Positions 33,532 to 44,741 of a stretch of DNA of 64,000 bases are shown here, one piece after another. The stretch is taken from NCBI RefSeq assembly GCF_003319115.1, contig NZ_QOHF01000001.1:372001-436000 (forward strand). Reading direction: 5' to 3'. Origin of the DNA: Geodermatophilus sp. TF02-6. Lineage in GTDB: Bacteria > Actinomycetota > Actinomycetes > Mycobacteriales > Geodermatophilaceae. Within the stretch, counting starts at the first letter, position 1, and each line of letters opens with the position of its first letter. A program made the translations under genes and the position numbers. The notes beneath the pieces are model-generated. The model did not search any database. It was not told the DNA's origin and saw nothing but the letters and a program-made list of their open reading frames with translations.

Positions 33532-36324
33532 TCACCGGGCAGGTGGTCGACGTGGTTCCGTGGTGAGCCCGTACCGCCGCGCCGGGGCGGGATCTGCCCG
33601 AGCGGGCTGACCAGCGAAGCGCGCCGCGAGCTCGGAGCGCGACCGGACGCCGAGCTTCGCGTAGACCCGGGTGAGGTGGAACTGCACGGTCTTGACCGAC
33701 AGCAGCATCGACGCAGCCACCTCCCTGTTGGTCAGGCCGGTCGCGACGAGGGTGGCGACGGTCCGCTCCTGCTCGGTGAGGTTCTCGGTGCCGGGCTCGG
33801 CTGCGCGGGGGGCGGGCCGGCCGGTCCTCAGCTCTCGGTCGCAGCGCTCCACGTAGACCCGGGCACCGAGCGCGGCGAAGGACTGGCGTGCCGTGGTGAA
33901 CAGCGCCGCGGCGTCCCGTCGGCGGCCGACGCGGCGCAGCGTGACGCCGTGGGCGAAGTCCACCCGGGCACGCTCGTACGGCAGCGGCAGCCCGGTCAGC
34001 CGGGCCCGCGCCTCCTCGAACGCCTGCTCCGCGCCCGGCAGATCGCCGCGGGCGGCCAGCAGCCGGCCGCGGACGTAGCCGAGCCGGGCGCCCGCGGAGC
34101 GGTGACCTCGCCGGTGCACCGTCGCCTCGAGCGGGGCGAGGAACTCCTCGGCCTCGGCGAGCCGGTCGGTCACGACCAGCGCGTTGGCGTAGACGTCGTG
34201 CCAGGGCCAGAAGCCCGGTTCGTCGAGACCGCCGCGCGGCGTCCGGACGGCGAGGGGAGCGAGGTGGCGGACGACCGCGGCGTAGTCCGACGCCGCCTCG
34301 GCCACGGACGCCCGGGCGAGCAGCGCGGGGACGGTCATGACGGTGTAGTCGTGCTCGGCGGCCGCGCCGAGGCGCAGGTGCCGCTCGGCGTCCTCGTGCT
34401 GGCCCCGGAGGGCGTGGACCTGGGCGCCGGTCCAGTGGACGAGGGGGCGCAGCAGGTCCAGCCCGGTGGCGGCGAGCAGGGCCTCGGCCTGACCGACGGC
34501 GTCCAGGGCCCCGGGCCAGTCACCCAGGGCGAAGCGGGTCCGGGCCAGCCACACCAGGGCCCACAGGGAGATGCGGTTCGAGCCGGTCTGCTGCACGGTC
34601 GGGACGGCGAACTCCAGCTCGCGCCGGGCTGCCTCGGGCCGGTCCTGCGCCAGGTACAGCCAGCCCAGCCCCATCCGGGCGCGCTGGTGCTGGGGTCCCG
34701 CGGGGCTCTCGGTGACCGCGTGCCGGTAGGCGGTGAACGCCTCGTCGACCGCGCCCCGGGCCGCGTGCCCCAGCCCGGCGATGGCGCGGGACTCGACCGC
34801 GGCCGGGGAGCCGGGCTCGGCGTGCTCGACCGCCCGGCCGGCCCACCGCACCAGCTCGTCGCCGTCCCAGTCGGCCAGGGCGTGCAGCACGTGGCGCTGG
34901 CAGACGACGGCGGCGGCACCGCGGTCGGTCCCCCGGAGGCGCCAGGCGGTGTCGAGGTGGGCGGCGGCCTCGGCCCGGCGGCCGCGCTGGACGGCGACGT
35001 AGGCGAGCACGGCGTCGCGGCGGGGGCCGGCGGGCAGCGCCTCCACCTCGGGGAGGGCGTCCACGGCCGGACCGAGCAGACCGGCTCCGGCCAGCGCGTC
35101 GACGGCCTGGACGAGGCGGGCCTCGCGGTCGGCGCGGGTGGGGCTGATCCGGCCGGCGTCGACGAGCGCGCCGGCGACGACGGCCCACGCCCCCTCGTCC
35201 GCCTTGCGCCGCGCCAGCTCCACCAGCTCGTCGGCGAGGCGGGCGTCCGGGAGCGGGGCCGCCTCGACCCGGTGGCGCAGCCGCTCGGTGTCGTCGGTGA
35301 CCACGGCGGCCGCGCGCAGGTGCAGCTCGTGCCGCGCCCGCGGCGAGAGGGTCGCGTACACGGCGCCGCGGACGAACCGCTCCGGGAAGATCAGCGCGTC
35401 CAGGCCGTGCCCGGCGGCGGTCGCCAGGAGGCCGGCGGCGCAGGCCTCGTCGAGAGCGGCGATCGGGTCGGCGAGCCCGGTCAGGGCCGCGGCGTCGGCG
35501 AGGACGGGATCGCGGCCGAGCACGGCCGCCGCCTCGACCAGCGCCCGGGTGGCAGGTGTGCAGCGGTCGAGCGCCTGCTGCACGCGGCGCTGGATGCTGG
35601 CCGGCGCGGGCAGCCGGGTCTGCCAGTCCGACCAGCGGACCGGTGGAGAGTCACCGAGCACCTCCAGGAGGTGGCCGGGGATGCCGGCGGTGTGCTCGCA
35701 GAGTCGCCGGGCGACCGGCATCGGCAGGTCGACCGCCGCCACCCGCGCGGCGAGCAGCTGGGTCTCGGGCGGTCCGAGCCGCAGCACGGGGACGGAGGTG
35801 GCCGCGAGCCGGTCGAGGACGGCGCCGGCCTCCGCGTCGCCGGTGTCCGGCTCCCCGGTGGCCCGGGCGAGCAGCAGCACGACCGGGGCGCGGCGGATGC
35901 GCGCGACCGCGGAGGCGATCGCCTGCAGCGAGACCGGGTCCGCGGAGTGTGCGTCGTCGACGACGACCAGCAGCGGCTGCTCCCCGGCCCGGGCCGCCCA
36001 GCGCCGGGCGAGCACCCCGCCGAGGTCGACCGGGTCGTCGCCGGCCGGTCCCGGCGGGGTGTCCCCGGGGTCGTCGGCGAGCAGCCGCCGGGCGAGCGCA
36101 CCCGCCCGGCGGCTCTCCCACGGCAGCCCGGGAGCCGCCGTCGTCGGCAGCTCCGGGTGCCGGCGGAGGAACCGGCGCAGCAGCGTGGTCTTGCCGATCC
36201 CGGCCGGGCCCTCGACGACGGCGGCCACCGGCCCGTCGGTGGCCGCCCGGTCGAGCAGCGCCTCGAGCTGCGCGGTCTCGGCGGCCAGCCCGACGACGTG
36301 GAGGTCCTCGTCGCCCGGGCTCAC
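33532..36324 (-). CDS. benR: LAL-type LuxR regulator downstream of the ben genes (BenR-like)
   Basis: A 930-residue STAND/LAL regulator. The N-terminal ATPase has Walker A GPAGIGKTT (about residues 42-50) and Walker B LLVVVDDAH (about 117-125), the middle is a long helical TPR-like region (430-830), and the C-terminus a LuxR helix-turn-helix (LTEQERTVATLVATGLTNREVA, VKTVQFHLTRVYAKLGV). It is the last gene after benA-benB-benC/D on the same strand, 60 bases from the fusion. In Corynebacterium glutamicum, as I recall, a LuxR-type BenR sits at the same place and activates the ben genes in response to benzoate. The symbol rests on that positional analogy. Confidence 0.8.
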   Translation of the reverse strand: MSPGDEDLHVVGLAAETAQLEALLDRAATDGPVAAVVEGPAGIGKTTLLRRFLRRHPELPTTAAPGLPWESRRAGALARRLLADDPGDTPPGPAGDDPVDLGGVLARRWAARAGEQPLLVVVDDAHSADPVSLQAIASAVARIRRAPVVLLLARATGEPDTGDAEAGAVLDRLAATSVPVLRLGPPETQLLAARVAAVDLPMPVARRLCEHTAGIPGHLLEVLGDSPPVRWSDWQTRLPAPASIQRRVQQALDRCTPATRALVEAAAVLGRDPVLADAAALTGLADPIAALDEACAAGLLATAAGHGLDALIFPERFVRGAVYATLSPRARHELHLRAAAVVTDDTERLRHRVEAAPLPDARLADELVELARRKADEGAWAVVAGALVDAGRISPTRADREARLVQAVDALAGAGLLGPAVDALPEVEALPAGPRRDAVLAYVAVQRGRRAEAAAHLDTAWRLRGTDRGAAAVVCQRHVLHALADWDGDELVRWAGRAVEHAEPGSPAAVESRAIAGLGHAARGAVDEAFTAYRHAVTESPAGPQHQRARMGLGWLYLAQDRPEAARRELEFAVPTVQQTGSNRISLWALVWLARTRFALGDWPGALDAVGQAEALLAATGLDLLRPLVHWTGAQVHALRGQHEDAERHLRLGAAAEHDYTVMTVPALLARASVAEAASDYAAVVRHLAPLAVRTPRGGLDEPGFWPWHDVYANALVVTDRLAEAEEFLAPLEATVHRRGHRSAGARLGYVRGRLLAARGDLPGAEQAFEEARARLTGLPLPYERARVDFAHGVTLRRVGRRRDAAALFTTARQSFAALGARVYVERCDRELRTGRPAPRAAEPGTENLTEQERTVATLVATGLTNREVAASMLLSVKTVQFHLTRVYAKLGVRSRSELAARFAGQPARADPAPARRYGLTTEPRRPPAR

Positions 36325-36384: not shown

Positions 36385-39159
36385 TCAGCCGAGGTCGCCA
36401 CCGGCCACGGGCAGGACGGTGCCGGTGACGTAGGAGGCCTCCTCCGAGGCCAGGAAGGTGATGGCCGCGGCTTGCTCGTCGAGGGTGCCGTAGCGCTTCA
36501 TCAGCGACGACTCCACCGTCTGGTCGACGATCGTCCGGTACCAGTCCTTCTCCTGCTCGGTCGCGGGTGCGGGGCCGCGCGGGGTGCGGCGCGGCGGGGC
36601 GTCGGTGCCGCCGGGCGCGGTGGCGACGACGCGCACGCCGTGCGGCGCCATCTCCAGCGCCAGCGCGGTGGTGATGGCGTTGACCCCGCCCTTGGCCGCG
36701 GCGTACGGGAGCCGGTTGAGCCCCCGGGTGGCCACTGAGGACACGTTGACGATCGTGCCGCGGCCCCGTTCCACCATGTGCGGCACGACCGCCCGGCAGC
36801 ACCACAGCGTCGGCCACAGCGACCGGTTGATCTCGGCCTGGATCTGCTCGGGCGGGTAGTGCTCGAACGGCTTGGCCCAGATCGTGCCGCCGACGGTGTG
36901 GACGGCGACGTCGATCCGGCCGAACCGCGCCAGCGCGGCGTCCACGACCGACTGCGCGCCCTCCCAGGTCTCCAGGTCGGCGACGACCGGGATCGCCTCC
37001 GCCCCGGGCTGACCCAGTTCCCCGGCCAGGTCGCGCACCAGCTCGGCCCGGTCGGCCAGCACCAGGGCTCCGCCCTCGGCGCTGATCCGCCGCGCCGTGC
37101 GCTCGCCGATCCCCTGTCCGGCGCCGGTGACCAGGACGACCTGGCCGGCGAACCGGCCCGGGGTGACGAACCGGGGGCGGCGACCTGCGGCGAGGTCGTG
37201 CATGGCCCGGCGGGTGGTCTCCTTGGACCGTTCCGCGTGCTCGGCGATCAGGATCCGGGCCCGCTCGCGGTCGCCGTCCCGGAACGCCTCGACGATGTCG
37301 AGGTGGTCCTGCGCGCACCGCGGGTGGACCCAGGTGGCCGAGCGCAGCGACTCCTCCATGTGCCCCTTGACGCCGAGCGCCTGGTAGGCGCGCAGCAGGT
37401 GCTCGTTGCCGGTGAGGGTGAACAGGTAGTCGTGGAACGCGGCGTTGGTCTCGGTGTAGGCCGCCGCGTCGACGAACCGGTCGCCCTCGACGTAGGGCAC
37501 GGTGGCCTCGGCCAGCACCCGGTAGCCGACGAGCTGCTGGTGCGCCAGGCGCCCGATGGTGAGCTCGAGCGCGCCCAGCTCCAGCGCCCGGCGGGCGTCG
37601 AAGAGGGCATCGGACTCGTGCACCGACGGGTGCTCCTCGCCGATCTGGTAGCCGTCGGCGGTGATCGAGTAGCCGTCCGCGGTCAACGCCGGCTCGATCC
37701 CCGCGTCCTCGATCCCGGCGTCCGGCCGGCCGGTCGGCGCCTCGGGCGCCGGCGGGGTGAGCTGCTCCAGCGCCACCTCCGGCAGCATCTCCTGGCCCGC
37801 GACGGCGCGGGCACCGACGGCGGGCACGAGGTCGTCGGCGTCGTCCACGGGCCGGATGTCGCCGGTGGCGACGGGCTCCCCCAGCCGCTGCCCCGCCAGG
37901 CGCCACAGGTCCGCCGGCGACTCGGTCCGCGGCCCGGCTCCGTCGGCGCCGAGTGGGGAGAGCTCGACCGGCGGGAACAGGGTCTGCCCGGCCGACGTCC
38001 GGCCCTCCCGGCCGTCCAGCTCCAGCAGCTCGGCCACGGTGTCCGGGACGACGACGGCCGGCACCGGCGGCGGCTCGACAGCGGCCTCCTCGGGCTCCGG
38101 CACGACCGCCCCGGGCTCCGGTTCGACGACCTCCTCGGGGGCTTGCGTCGGGACCGCGGCCAGCGCGAACTTCTCGTAGTAGAAGCCCGAGGGGGTCACC
38201 CCCAGCCCGGCGACGTGCGTGCGCACCGCCTCCACCATGGCCGGCGGGCCGCACAGGTACACCGCGGCGCCGCCGTCGTGCAGGTGCTCGGGCCCGTACA
38301 GGCCGGTGACGTAGCCCTGGTTGGGGGCCTTGGTCGCGGGGTCGGCGACGCAGTAGTCCCAGGTGAGCCCCTCGACGGCGCCCGCCAGGTGCGCGATGGT
38401 CTCCATCTCCACCAGGTCGTCGTCGGTCGTGACCCCGTAGACCAGGTGCATCCGGCGGTCACTGCGGTTCCCCTCGAGGGTCCGCAGGATCGACAGGATC
38501 GGCGCCAGCCCGGTCCCGCCGGCCAGCAGCAGCAGCGGGGCGTCGGACTCGCGCAGGAAGAAGCTGCCGTGCGGGCCGGTGAAGGTGATCTCGTCACCCA
38601 CCGCGGCCCGCTCCTCCAGCCAGGTCGACATGACCCCACCCGGCGTCAGCTTGACCAGGAAGGTCAGCTGCTCGTCCTGCGGAGCGCTGGAGAAGGAGTA
38701 CGACCGGGACTCCTCGGTGCCGGGGACGGCGATGTTGACGTACTGCCCCGGGAGGAACGCCAGGGCGTCCCGGTCGGCGATCTCGACGGCCAGCCGGACC
38801 GTCGTCGGGGAGAGCCGGTCCAGCGCGGTGATCCGACCGCGGTGGGTGGCGGCGCTGGTCTTGGCCACGGCCGACGTGGTCGCGATCTGCAGCACCAGGT
38901 CCGAGCGCGGCTTCATGCTGCAGGGCAGCACGTACCCGCTCTCGGCCTCGTCGTCGGACAGCGCGTCCTCGAGGTAGGTGCCCCCGTCGAACTCGCCCGA
39001 CTCGCAGAGGGCCTTGCACGTGCCGCACGCGCCGTCGCGGCAGTCCAGCGGGATGTTGATCCGTGCCCGGTAGGACGCGTCGGCGACGGTCTGGTCGTCC
39101 CGGCAGGTGATGAAGCGGGTGACCCCGTCCTCGAACGCGAGTGCCACGCGGTGGTCCAT
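36385..39159 (-). CDS. benC: Fusion: benzoate dioxygenase reductase, FCD sensor domain, benzoate-diol dehydrogenase
   Basis: One uninterrupted 924-residue frame. Residues 1-95 are a plant-type 2Fe-2S ferredoxin (Cys40, Cys45, Cys48, Cys80). Residues 100-340 are the FAD/NAD reductase (RSYSFSS 152-158, GGTGLAP 214-220), together BenC. Residues 340-510 are a Pro/Glu-rich linker. Residues 515-655 fit the FCD ligand domain of GntR regulators, with His576, His619 and His641 at the metal positions and Asn572 where Asp is usual; no helix-turn-helix is present. Residues 667-924 are an SDR (TGAGQGIG, Ser808, Tyr819, Lys823), i.e. BenD. BenC feeds electrons to BenAB and BenD oxidises the cis-diol to catechol. 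The BenD boundary lacks ATG or GTG (GTC at residue 665); Met653 is a possible restart. Confidence 0.9.
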   Translation of the reverse strand: MDHRVALAFEDGVTRFITCRDDQTVADASYRARINIPLDCRDGACGTCKALCESGEFDGGTYLEDALSDDEAESGYVLPCSMKPRSDLVLQIATTSAVAKTSAATHRGRITALDRLSPTTVRLAVEIADRDALAFLPGQYVNIAVPGTEESRSYSFSSAPQDEQLTFLVKLTPGGVMSTWLEERAAVGDEITFTGPHGSFFLRESDAPLLLLAGGTGLAPILSILRTLEGNRSDRRMHLVYGVTTDDDLVEMETIAHLAGAVEGLTWDYCVADPATKAPNQGYVTGLYGPEHLHDGGAAVYLCGPPAMVEAVRTHVAGLGVTPSGFYYEKFALAAVPTQAPEEVVEPEPGAVVPEPEEAAVEPPPVPAVVVPDTVAELLELDGREGRTSAGQTLFPPVELSPLGADGAGPRTESPADLWRLAGQRLGEPVATGDIRPVDDADDLVPAVGARAVAGQEMLPEVALEQLTPPAPEAPTGRPDAGIEDAGIEPALTADGYSITADGYQIGEEHPSVHESDALFDARRALELGALELTIGRLAHQQLVGYRVLAEATVPYVEGDRFVDAAAYTETNAAFHDYLFTLTGNEHLLRAYQALGVKGHMEESLRSATWVHPRCAQDHLDIVEAFRDGDRERARILIAEHAERSKETTRRAMHDLAAGRRPRFVTPGRFAGQVVLVTGAGQGIGERTARRISAEGGALVLADRAELVRDLAGELGQPGAEAIPVVADLETWEGAQSVVDAALARFGRIDVAVHTVGGTIWAKPFEHYPPEQIQAEINRSLWPTLWCCRAVVPHMVERGRGTIVNVSSVATRGLNRLPYAAAKGGVNAITTALALEMAPHGVRVVATAPGGTDAPPRRTPRGPAPATEQEKDWYRTIVDQTVESSLMKRYGTLDEQAAAITFLASEEASYVTGTVLPVAGGDLG

Positions 39160-39210: not shown

Positions 39211-39756
39211 TCAGAGGTGGTAGACGTCGACGACGTGGTGGATGTAGTCGTTCTTGAGCACCACGGTCTTGCGCCGGATGAGCGGCGCGGGCCCGGAGAA
39301 GTCGATCGTGTAGAACGACGTCCCGTAGTACGGGTCGACGGTCTTGTACCGGAAGTACATGGTGTGCCAGTTGAACCGGACGTCGACCAGGTCGCCGCGG
39401 CGCTCGATGACCTCGACGTTGGTGATGTTGTGGCTCGTGCGCGGCTCCGGTAGCGACGTCGCGCTCGAGCGCTCGGTGCGGATCCGGAAGACGCGGTCCT
39501 CGAGCCCACCCTTGGTGGGGTAGTAGATGAGGGACATCTCCCGCTGCGGGTCCTCGGTGAGCCGGTCGTCGTCGGCCCACGACGGCATCCAGAAGACGAC
39601 GTCGTCGGCGTAGCACGAGAGCCACTTCTCGAACTCGCGGTCGTCGAGGTAGCGGGCCTCGCGGTAGAGGAACTGCTCGATGGCGTTCTGGGTGATCAGC
39701 TTGCCGCCCGCGGAGGCGGCCTGACCCGCCTCGACGGGGCTCTGCGTGGCGGTCAT
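39211..39756 (-). CDS. benB: Benzoate 1,2-dioxygenase, small (beta) subunit
   Basis: A 181-residue ring-hydroxylating dioxygenase beta subunit (NTF2-like cone fold, no cofactor) that supports the alpha3beta3 hexamer. Recognisable segments are IEQFLYREARYLDDREFEKWL, YADDVVFWMPSW, TSHNITNVEV and the C-terminal RRKTVVLKNDYIHHVVDVYHL-type ending. Length is normal for BenB or XylY (about 160-180). ATG 39756 lies five bases after the benA stop codon, and the benC/D fusion starts 51 bases further on, so the three are one operon. Confidence 0.95.
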   Translation of the reverse strand: MTATQSPVEAGQAASAGGKLITQNAIEQFLYREARYLDDREFEKWLSCYADDVVFWMPSWADDDRLTEDPQREMSLIYYPTKGGLEDRVFRIRTERSSATSLPEPRTSHNITNVEVIERRGDLVDVRFNWHTMYFRYKTVDPYYGTSFYTIDFSGPAPLIRRKTVVLKNDYIHHVVDVYHL

Positions 39757-39761
39757 GACGG

Positions 39762-41138
39762 TCAGCCCTCCGTGGTCGGGACGTCGATGCCGAAGTGCTT
39801 CTCCACGGCCGCCCGCATCGTCTGCAGCCAGTAGCCGTGCTGGACGGGGTAGAGCCCCTCGTCCTCGTTGCGCACACCGGCGGAGATGACGCCGTCCATG
39901 CCGAGGGACGTCGCGACCTCGTCGGGCCCGGGAAGCCAGTGCTCGGCACCGCGGCTCATGTCGTTCCACGGCGCGGCGGTGGCCTGGAAGGTGAGCTGGC
40001 AGGAGCGGAACTCCTCCAGGTCGTCCGGGGTGGCCATGCCCGAGGCGTTGAAGAAGTCCTCGTACTGGCGGATCCGGTGCGCACGGGCCTCGGCGCTCTC
40101 GCCCTTGGGCGCGATGCAGTAGATGGTGACCTCGGTCCGGTCCGGCGCGATCGGCCGGAAGTGCCGGATCTGGGTGCTGAACTGGTCCATCAGGTAGACG
40201 TTCGGGTAGAGGCACAGGTTGCGGGAGCCCTTGACCATGAACTCGCCCTTGGCGTCGCCGAACTGCTCCTTGAGCTCATCCAGGCGGTCCCACAGCGGGC
40301 GGTCCTGGGGGTTGGCCGCCCAGGTCCACAGGCACAGGTGCCCGTTGGGGTAGGACCAGTAGCCGCCGCCGGACTTGCCCCAGCCGCCGGCGTCCAGCGC
40401 CTTGGTGGTGTTCTTCGACTCGCCGGTGCTGCGCCGCGAGGTCGTGGCCGCGTAGTTCCAGTGGGTCGCGCTGACGTGGTAGCCGTCGGCGCCGTTCTCC
40501 GCCTGGACCTTCCAGTTGCCGTCGTAGGTGTAGGTCGAGGAGCCGCGCAGCACCTCCAGCCCCTCGGGCGACTGGTCGACGAGCATGTCGATGACCGTGG
40601 TGGTGTCACCGAGGTGCTCGGCGAGCGTGCTCACGTCGGGGTTGAGGCTGCCGAAGAGGAACCCGCGGTAGCTGTCGAACCGCGCGACCGTGACCAGGTC
40701 GTGGGAGCCGTCCGTGTCGAAGCTCGCCGGGTAGCCGGCGCCGTCCGGGTCCTTGACCTTGAGCAGCTTGCCGTCGTTGCGGAACGTCCAGCCGTGGAAC
40801 GGGCAGGTCAGCGTCATGCGGTTGTCGGTCTTGCGGCGGCAGAGCATCGCGCCGCGGTGCGCACAGGCGTTGATGAGGCAGTGCAGCTCGCCCTTCTTGT
40901 CGCGCGTGATGACGACGGGCTGGCGGCCGATGTAGGTGGTGAAGTAGTCGCCGGGGTCGGGGACCTGGCTCTCGTGCGCGAGGTAGACCCAGTTGCCCTC
41001 GAAGATGTGGGTCATCTCGAGCTCGAAGGTCTCCTCGTCGGTGAAGATCCGACGGTTGGCGCGGAAGATCCCGGCCTCGGGGTCGTCGACGACGGCGTCG
41101 GCGAGGACGTCGCGGACGTGCGTCACGTCGGCGGTCAT
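39762..41138 (-). CDS. benA: Benzoate 1,2-dioxygenase, large (alpha) subunit
   Basis: The 458-residue catalytic subunit that converts benzoate, O2 and NADH-derived electrons to 1,2-dihydroxycyclohexa-3,5-diene-1-carboxylate. The Rieske motif is complete (Cys92-x-His94 and Cys112-x2-His115 in CAHRG and CPFHG). The mononuclear iron site starts at His221 and His226 in DGYHVSATH; the third ligand, an Asp, should lie in the C-terminal third. It is first in the ben operon, divergent from catR, with palindromes in between. ATG 41138 follows GGAGG; the frame upstream of it is promoter DNA. Confidence 0.96.
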
Positions 41139-41226
41139 GGCAGCCTCCGGTCCAGTGGGCGGTGGGTCGAGTGCGCTCCACCCACTGTCGGTGGCGCCGG
41201 TCACGTCCGCGTCGGCAATCTGCCTA

Positions 41227-41240
41227 GTCCTGACCAGGAC
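41227..41240. promoter_or_regulatory. Inverted repeat in the benA/catR promoter region
   Basis: GTCCT and AGGAC face each other across GACC, about 90 bases upstream of the benA start. It is one of two palindromes between the divergent ben and cat operons and a candidate site for the LAL or LysR regulator. Confidence 0.4.
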
Positions 41241-41262
41241 CCTGTCGAGACGAGCAGCGTCT

Positions 41263-41278
41263 GAGTTCAGCCGAACTC
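41263..41278. promoter_or_regulatory. Perfect palindrome in the benA/catR promoter region
   Basis: GAGTTC and GAACTC face each other across AGCC. Lying about 105 bases upstream of catR and flanked by further dyad bases (CTGAGTTC, GAACTCGG), it has the size of a LysR-type recognition site. CatR/BenM proteins commonly bind between divergent cat and ben promoters (family knowledge). Confidence 0.45.
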
Positions 41279-41382
41279 GGTCTTTGTGGATGCACGACGG
41301 CGGTCCTAACGTTGGGTCCGTCACAGCAGGCGGGGCGGGGGGCCCACCCTGGAGCCGGGATCGAGCGACGACGGGAGGGCAC

Positions 41383-42344: not shown

Positions 42345-42348
<4 letters not shown>
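41383..42348 (+). CDS. catR: LysR-type regulator of catechol genes
   Basis: A 321-residue LysR-type regulator. The N-terminal winged helix ([30 protein letters not shown] in pieces, residues 2-31) and the LysR substrate-binding domain (about 90-295) are complete. Position as first gene of catR-catB-catA-catC and divergent from benA suggests it activates with cis,cis-muconate, possibly benzoate, as inducer. GTG 41383 follows GGGAGGG. The last 25 residues are an unusual Ala-Pro-Asp-Leu repeat tail. Its stop codon overlaps the catB start. Confidence 0.87.
42262..42294 (+). repeat. 12-base in-frame microrepeat in the catR tail
   Basis: The unit GCACCCGACCTC occurs twice perfectly and a third time nearly (42262-42273, 42274-42285, 42286-42294), encoding repeated APDL. 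It lies beyond the folded LysR domain. Confidence 0.8.

Positions 42349-44741
<2,393 letters not shown>

Follow-up and report, generated by a model that had tools for sequence, protein, structure and literature searches.

Why does the sensor domain of a transcription regulator sit between two enzymes of benzoate catabolism? The question is raised by a gene of Geodermatophilus sp. TF02-6, located on the minus strand at 36385-39159 of the window (the whole 64,000-nucleotide stretch of DNA analysed here, to which all coordinates below refer unless a locus is named), in which the benzoate dioxygenase reductase BenC, an FCD domain of the GntR-regulator type and the dehydrogenase BenD share one chain. 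The fusion is already known and common; what we add is the conserved effector site of its FCD, the kinship of this FCD with those of flavin reductases, a fusion of BenC-FCD to a cytochrome P450, and a repeated motif in the linker. We propose that the FCD may be a metal-dependent carboxylate sensor that gates BenC, with the attached BenD returning reduced nicotinamide adenine dinucleotide (NADH) on the spot, a reading whose chances of being right and wrong we judge to be about equal.

The fused gene and its parts

The open reading frame runs from ATG to stop (stop codon included in the coordinates) over 924 residues with no internal stop, and the calculated mass of its product is 98.4 kDa, as an earlier note on this DNA had claimed in describing one unbroken frame and a protein near 98 kDa. 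In order along the minus strand, it encodes BenC (residues 1-335, 38155-39159), with its 2Fe-2S ferredoxin, flavin adenine dinucleotide (FAD) and nicotinamide adenine dinucleotide (NAD) domains; a Pro/Glu-rich linker predicted to be disordered (residues 336-503, 37651-38154); the FCD with a conserved lead-in (residues 504-656, 37192-37650); a short junction (residues 657-672, 37144-37191), in which residue 665 is GTC and not the start codon that the earlier note had found missing for BenD; and BenD itself (residues 669-924, 36388-37155).

All three parts named in the earlier note score above curated cut-offs. The NCBIfam equivalogs for BenC (NF040810, residues 3-332) and BenD (NF040811, residues 669-924) reach 468.1 and 421 bits against cut-offs of 430 and 380, and the middle segment, whose identity had been left to a domain search, matches Pfam FCD (PF07729) at residues 519-643 with 52.4 bits (gathering cut-off 24.3). 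Pfam further places Fer2 at 10-84, FAD_binding_6 at 110-200, NAD_binding_1 at 211-313 and adh_short at 673-855. The GntR helix-turn-helix is not among the eight Pfam families found at E<=1 in the 924-residue protein, in agreement with the claim that the FCD lacks one; the linker, predicted to be disordered, occupies the position before the FCD where it would lie. Cys40, Cys45, Cys48 and Cys80, Arg152-Ser153-Tyr154-Ser155 and residues 214-220 of BenC are invariant in 40 rows, as are Ser807/808, Tyr819 and Lys823 of BenD; we take the former to be the 2Fe-2S cysteines, the flavin-site RxYS and the NAD-site GGTGLAP, and the latter to be the catalytic residues of a short-chain dehydrogenase. Both enzyme parts, judged by sequence, belong to catalytic families and carry invariant active-site motifs.

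The effector site of the FCD

In the alignment of fused rows, the FCD is as conserved as both enzymes. Five of its residues, Arg523 (37591-37593), Asn572 (37444-37446), His576 (37432-37434), His619 (37303-37305) and His641 (37237-37239), all encoded on the minus strand, are each present in 93 of 93 fused rows, a set in which some species occur twice, as they do in the set of 122 used for the linker below (98 distinct BenC sequences). The last four are the proposed metal ligands, and they follow the metal-binding FCD pattern (N/D-x3-H, H, H) with fitting spacing: the three histidines reported earlier are in place, and Asn572 occupies the fourth position of the site. In the available portions of the literature, its counterparts are Asn137 in Atu1419 and Asn144 in PS5454. 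Arg523 aligns with Arg81 of PmiR in a weak FCD profile match (E 0.064) and probably corresponds to the Arg that binds the effector in DgoR, CitO and Atu1419.

A fold search with the predicted structure recovers the all-helical FCD fold for the middle domain and matches it to regulator FCDs, bearing out the fold assigned in the earlier note. The regulators Atu1419 (VanR), PS5454, NanR, DgoR and DhdR share this fold and the Asn/Asp-His-His-His site with the fusion; unlike BenC-FCD, in which no helix-turn-helix was found, they are DNA-binding proteins that have one. We conclude that the FCD keeps the predicted Asn-His-His-His metal site and the Arg of ligand-binding GntR regulators, and because this effector site is conserved, sensing of a small carboxylate becomes more likely. 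The idea that Asn in place of Asp marks enzyme-borne FCDs only was rejected, as Atu1419, PS5454 and a regulator of the same genome (L158) also have Asn.

Relatives of the FCD

The nearest FCD in the same genome, which is also the closest that our searches returned from proteins other than BenC, belongs to P0002, a 382-residue protein (locus L005, 784-1932, contig C2) composed of a flavin reductase, a GntR helix-turn-helix (38.3 bits) and an FCD. It too is borne on a reductase and of the Asn type; its reductase fold is different and, unlike the fusion, it keeps the helix-turn-helix. Within the genome, the BenC FCD and the P0002 FCD are reciprocal best matches (91.6 and 86.1 bits; next 20.8 and 36.6). 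When a profile of eight BenC FCDs was run over 98 genomes of the class, it gave 14 matches at 1e-9, led by two BenC proteins (243.9 and 227.6 bits, both in the profile) and a flavin reductase (118.3), with the others at 51.7 or less. P0002-like proteins of near full length occur in 7 of 108 family genomes. By eye, the P0002 gene is closely trailed by a ribB/ribA-like frame.

A tree of 46 FCDs separates 24 BenC and 7 flavin reductase FCDs from 15 regulator rows (14 genes, since L158 and L207 represent the same gene) with branch support of 98/99, and groups the BenC FCDs alone with 89/81; repeat copies (L160, L162, L204) and rows below 15 bits were left out, and the extraction profile included P0002. 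Given the small sample and the many long rows among the regulators, one origin for the reductase-borne FCDs is likely but not proved.

An FCD search of plasmids returned six records, one from Tsukamurella and five from Paraburkholderia. On the plasmid of Paraburkholderia sp. FT54, the 929-residue protein P0004 (L165, 3984-6773) begins with BenC, continues with an FCD and ends with a cytochrome P450, the last being confirmed by Pfam (74.4 bits) in FT54 only; the C-terminus of L168 resembles that of P0004, and L167 is also counted as BenC-FCD-P450. This suggests that BenC-FCD acts as a module, joined to BenD in some proteins and to P450 in others. In both annotated plasmid records, one from each genus, the fused protein is named BenC alone.

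Distribution and origin of the fusion

The earlier note had seen the link to BenD as the new step; it is not new to this organism, as many actinobacterial families share it and it was reported in 2019 from Gordonia alkanivorans YC-RL2, whose benABCD operon has benC and benD fused together with an FCD ligand-binding domain (PMC6362181). The parts named there are the same as in the Geodermatophilus fusion, a likeness by description between unaligned proteins that comes, in the text available, from one in-silico annotation sentence on one strain. In Rhodococcus TG-1, benC is called an FCD domain-containing protein and benD is separate (PMC11858498, available in part). Unfused actinobacterial BenC-FCD proteins (TG-1, as far as that source describes it, L101 and L169) carry the same Asn-type FCD after BenC; unlike the fusion, they mostly have a short linker, and benD is the next, overlapping gene. 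BenC of Acinetobacter (PDB 1krh) and proteobacterial plasmid BenC and BenD belong to the same reductase and dehydrogenase families, with no FCD, no fusion and separate genes. A search of open-licence literature, covering titles and the start of abstracts and dependent on wording, found no paper testing the BenC FCD, linking it to flavin reductases or reporting the P450 fusion.

Ten of 26 genomes of the genus, our own included, contain the fusion in one open frame matched over residues 1-924. In the family Geodermatophilaceae, 13 of 112 genomes match. A second family has matches in 52 of 181 genomes (28 fused, 21 with BenC-FCD and a separate BenD, 3 with BenC lacking the FCD), and a third in 17 of 100 (none fused, 10 with BenC-FCD, 6 with BenC lacking the FCD, 1 with BenD only); a further family gave no match in 150 genomes, a zero that shows nothing by itself. 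Among 98 sampled genomes of the class, five gave a match at 1e-50: our own, one in which benC and benD are separate genes, and three with a weaker BenC-like protein (33-37% identity). In a named genome collection, at least 583 stretches were confirmed (of 597), and the best 80 of these are all single frames without a stop, a figure that is not a rate because the set was selected for its similarity to the complete fusion. Their hosts are Geodermatophilus, Blastococcus, Pseudonocardia, Kribbella, Rhodococcus, Saccharopolyspora, Amycolatopsis, Gordonia, Williamsia, Nocardioides, Mycolicibacterium, Kitasatospora, Knoellia and others. This occurrence in many actinobacterial families refutes a new, strain-specific fusion, and the architecture is kept over deep divergence, beside benA and benB. 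Among the frames classified in the second and third families and on the BenC tree, none joins BenC to BenD without an FCD.

A quick tree built from 83 BenC parts places the 39 fused rows in one clade (support 99) that requires one change, and three P450-fused rows in a separate clade. Identical rows (170 to 146) and near-copies (146 to 83) had been thinned out, and the weak BenC-like L102-L104 and the repeat copies L105, L123, L124, L162, L191 and L192 dropped. In unfused relatives, 42 of 44 rows have a candidate benD start that precedes the end of benC, by 4 bases in 37 rows and by 1 base in 5, and fusion is therefore a natural step from overlapping genes. The fusion thus has one origin on the BenC tree, putatively from benC-FCD and benD genes with overlapping ends. 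Unfused benC-FCD followed by benD is common in relatives, and together with the single BenC clade this agrees with the earlier suggestion that the FCD was an older extension of BenC, to which BenD was joined later.

The history of BenD is more involved. On a tree of 62 BenD parts, thinned in the same way, the 20 fused rows need two changes, with the unfused BenDs L108 and L118 of the third family falling among them, and a single grouping of fused BenDs is narrowly rejected in the approximately unbiased test (p-AU 0.045). Locus L026 (8001-10748) is a mosaic, with BenC and FCD 84% and 91% like those of the window and BenD only 62%, and on the tree this BenD falls with those of Pseudonocardia L046 and L081 (support 100). 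From this mosaic and the BenD tree, it follows that BenD parts moved between genes.

The linker and its repeated motif

As described in the earlier note, a Pro/Glu-rich linker of about 170 residues separates BenC from the FCD: proline and glutamate make up 27% of residues 336-505 and 15% of the whole protein, and the AlphaFold2 predicted local distance difference test (pLDDT) is below 50 for residues 330-414, 419-425 and 428-511. Within it lie three copies of a motif centred on AGQ (37777-38004, minus strand) at a spacing of 32 residues: GRTSAGQTLFPP at residues 386-397 (37969-38004), LWRLAGQRLGEP at residues 418-429 (37873-37908) and ARAVAGQEMLPE at residues 450-461 (37777-37812).

Across 122 fused proteins, the linker measures 77-203 residues (median 152.5) and contains 279 AGQs, against a mean of 10.5 and a maximum of 19 in 200 shuffles. 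Two to four copies occur in the 91 of 122 linkers that have at least two; the consensus is A-R-x-[IVL]-A-G-Q-x-[VLMI]-[FLW]-P, and 123 of 164 spacings are 30-32 residues. Related linkers are not independent of one another; the repetition within each protein is. Linkers of unfused BenC-FCD proteins are mostly short (17-56 residues in 28 of 36), with no AGQ in these 28. The long linkers of six unfused genomes (eight loci, two counted twice) carry a repeated I-A-A-R-P-V-G-Y-like motif instead, and one of the six genomes has a single AGQ. The I-A-A-R-P-V-G-Y-like repeat stands at a similar position in the chain (L153, L154, L170, L178, L188, L189) and represents an alternative motif solution for this linker.

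A role as a general tag was rejected, as two copies occur in 0 of 17016 other frames of the examined loci; single AGQs are scattered over BenA (15/80), LuxR (7/73), CatA (5/68) and BenB (1/80). That the motif docks on the oxygenase is our guess.

Proposed mechanism

From the identity, conservation, order and kinship of the parts, we infer metal and ligand binding by the FCD, gating of BenC and a gain from local return of NADH. The FCD would be a GntR-family effector domain that lost its DNA-binding half. Its ligand would be a small aromatic carboxylate (benzoate or the carboxylate of the cis-diol) held on a buried metal ion; the resulting change of shape would allow electron transfer from BenC to BenAB only in the presence of substrate, which would limit the waste of NADH and the formation of peroxide. 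BenD, which follows the last FCD helix after about a dozen residues, would make NADH where the BenC arm, on its flexible tether of about 150 residues, consumes it, and the fusion would produce BenC and BenD in equal number. The earlier note held that the fusion couples the two redox steps one to one: the NADH made by BenD does balance that used by BenC, and this is true of the pathway whether its enzymes are joined or not, so the added gain of the fusion would be equal dose and short distance.

The closest analogue with experimental support for gating is AbHpaC, the reductase of p-hydroxyphenylacetate hydroxylase, in which binding of 4-hydroxyphenylacetate to a MarR domain at the C-terminus lifts self-inhibition and speeds flavin reduction at least 30-fold, according to the available text (PMC10816480). 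Like BenC-FCD, it is an oxygenase reductase with the ligand domain of a transcription factor, and it serves as our gating model; the two differ in that substrate stimulation was measured in AbHpaC, whereas the fusion is known from its sequence.

Several observations weigh against the gating of BenC by a ligand-binding FCD. AbHpaC differs from BenC-FCD in both its reductase family and its regulator domain, and the FCD of P0002 may still serve DNA binding, because that protein keeps its GntR helix-turn-helix. The FCD appears dispensable in places, being missing in 3 of 24 unfused loci of the second family and in 6 of 16 benC-bearing genomes of the third, and its presence or absence changes six times on the BenC tree. 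With phmmer, the FCD has no PDB match at E<=0.01, and its profile finds none of significance there (PmiR, E 0.064; NanR, E 0.84). The full-length AlphaFold2 model (predicted template modelling score, pTM, 0.45) has no trusted FCD-BenC contact and provides no domain-domain contacts.

A broader and more tentative version is that one branch of FCDs left gene regulation and became an Asn-form switch on oxygenase reductases (BenC, flavin reductases, BenC-P450), through which reducing power would flow only with an aromatic acid bound. One actinobacterial clade would then have put switch, reductase and dehydrogenase into one chain, with a 150-residue arm whose two to four docking motifs may hold a partner, perhaps the three-fold oxygenase.

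Alternative explanations

The alternative that survives best, while in our view rather unlikely, is that the FCD serves assembly only, as a folded hub whose dimer or tetramer contacts hold BenC arms around a BenD core with no ligand role, the gain being equal dose and short distance. Regulator FCDs do form dimers and tetramers, Atu1419 being a tetramer in the accessible text (PMC7797058), the long, predicted-disordered linker with its repeated motifs would suit such an arrangement, and the overlap of most unfused benC and benD genes (42/44 rows) means that close co-production was already in place. Yet conservation of all four metal-site residues and the Arg in 93 of 93 rows is more than a mere scaffold would require, and the FCD is also found on BenC without BenD.

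Less probable still is that the fusion is not kept in the cell, with translation of BenD beginning additionally at an internal start around residue 653 or 649, or with the chain being cut, so that mostly separate enzymes result. Of 98 fused genes, 84 do have an ATG 14 codons ahead of the point where the BenD model starts, and 55 have one 18 codons ahead of it; however, only 15 of the 98 show a ribosome-site-like core near a start there, the ATG codes for a residue of the last FCD helix, and a stop is never regained in the fused frames read. We consider it very improbable that the FCD is a regulator leftover carried along by the fusion with no present role: it was lost or never gained in several unfused lineages, but it is as conserved as both enzymes with an invariant effector site, and no FCD-less BenC-BenD fusion is among the classified frames. 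A sequencing or assembly error that joined two genes is refuted by third-position G+C, which stays within 0.93-1.00 in all 16 blocks of 60 codons, those of the linker and junction among them, and by the same unbroken frame in the best 80 of the at least 583 loci and in 13 of 13 matching family genomes; a frameshift or stop between BenC and BenD was what the earlier note had named as a refutation.

Gene neighbourhood

Upstream of the fusion, across a gap of 51 bases, lies benB, for the benzoate 1,2-dioxygenase small subunit (39211-39756, minus; TIGR03232, 269.2 bits, cut-off 225.55), preceded by a frame with benA, for the large subunit (39762-41324, minus; TIGR03229, 804.3 bits, cut-off 780.95), of which the family match spans only residues 76-506. 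The next gene downstream encodes a large LuxR-type regulator (33532-36324, minus), whose C-terminal LuxR-type matches are all below family cut-offs. The next pathway step, catechol 1,2-dioxygenase, is encoded by catA (43504-44358, plus; TIGR02438, 463 bits, cut-off 404.4). The cluster also contains a LysR-type regulator, a muconolactone isomerase, a muconate cycloisomerase-like gene (42345-43448; 209.8 bits, well below the family cut-off of 334.95) and an aromatic-acid-type transporter (260.8 bits, below the cut-off of 418.55).

Implications

The interest of the locus lies in an enzyme-borne FCD that keeps its effector site and in its kinship with other reductase-borne FCDs. Database annotation can hide both the FCD and its fusion partners, as in the plasmid fusions labelled BenC alone. 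If the FCD gates BenC, a much-studied sensor family of regulators would act directly on enzymes, and the roles of ligand and metal could be tested by simple rate assays instead of DNA binding. Gating would also make BenC-FCD a natural switch module of reductase and sensor, already attached by evolution to a dehydrogenase and to a P450, and would explain how actinobacteria avoid the waste of NADH in a Rieske dioxygenase.

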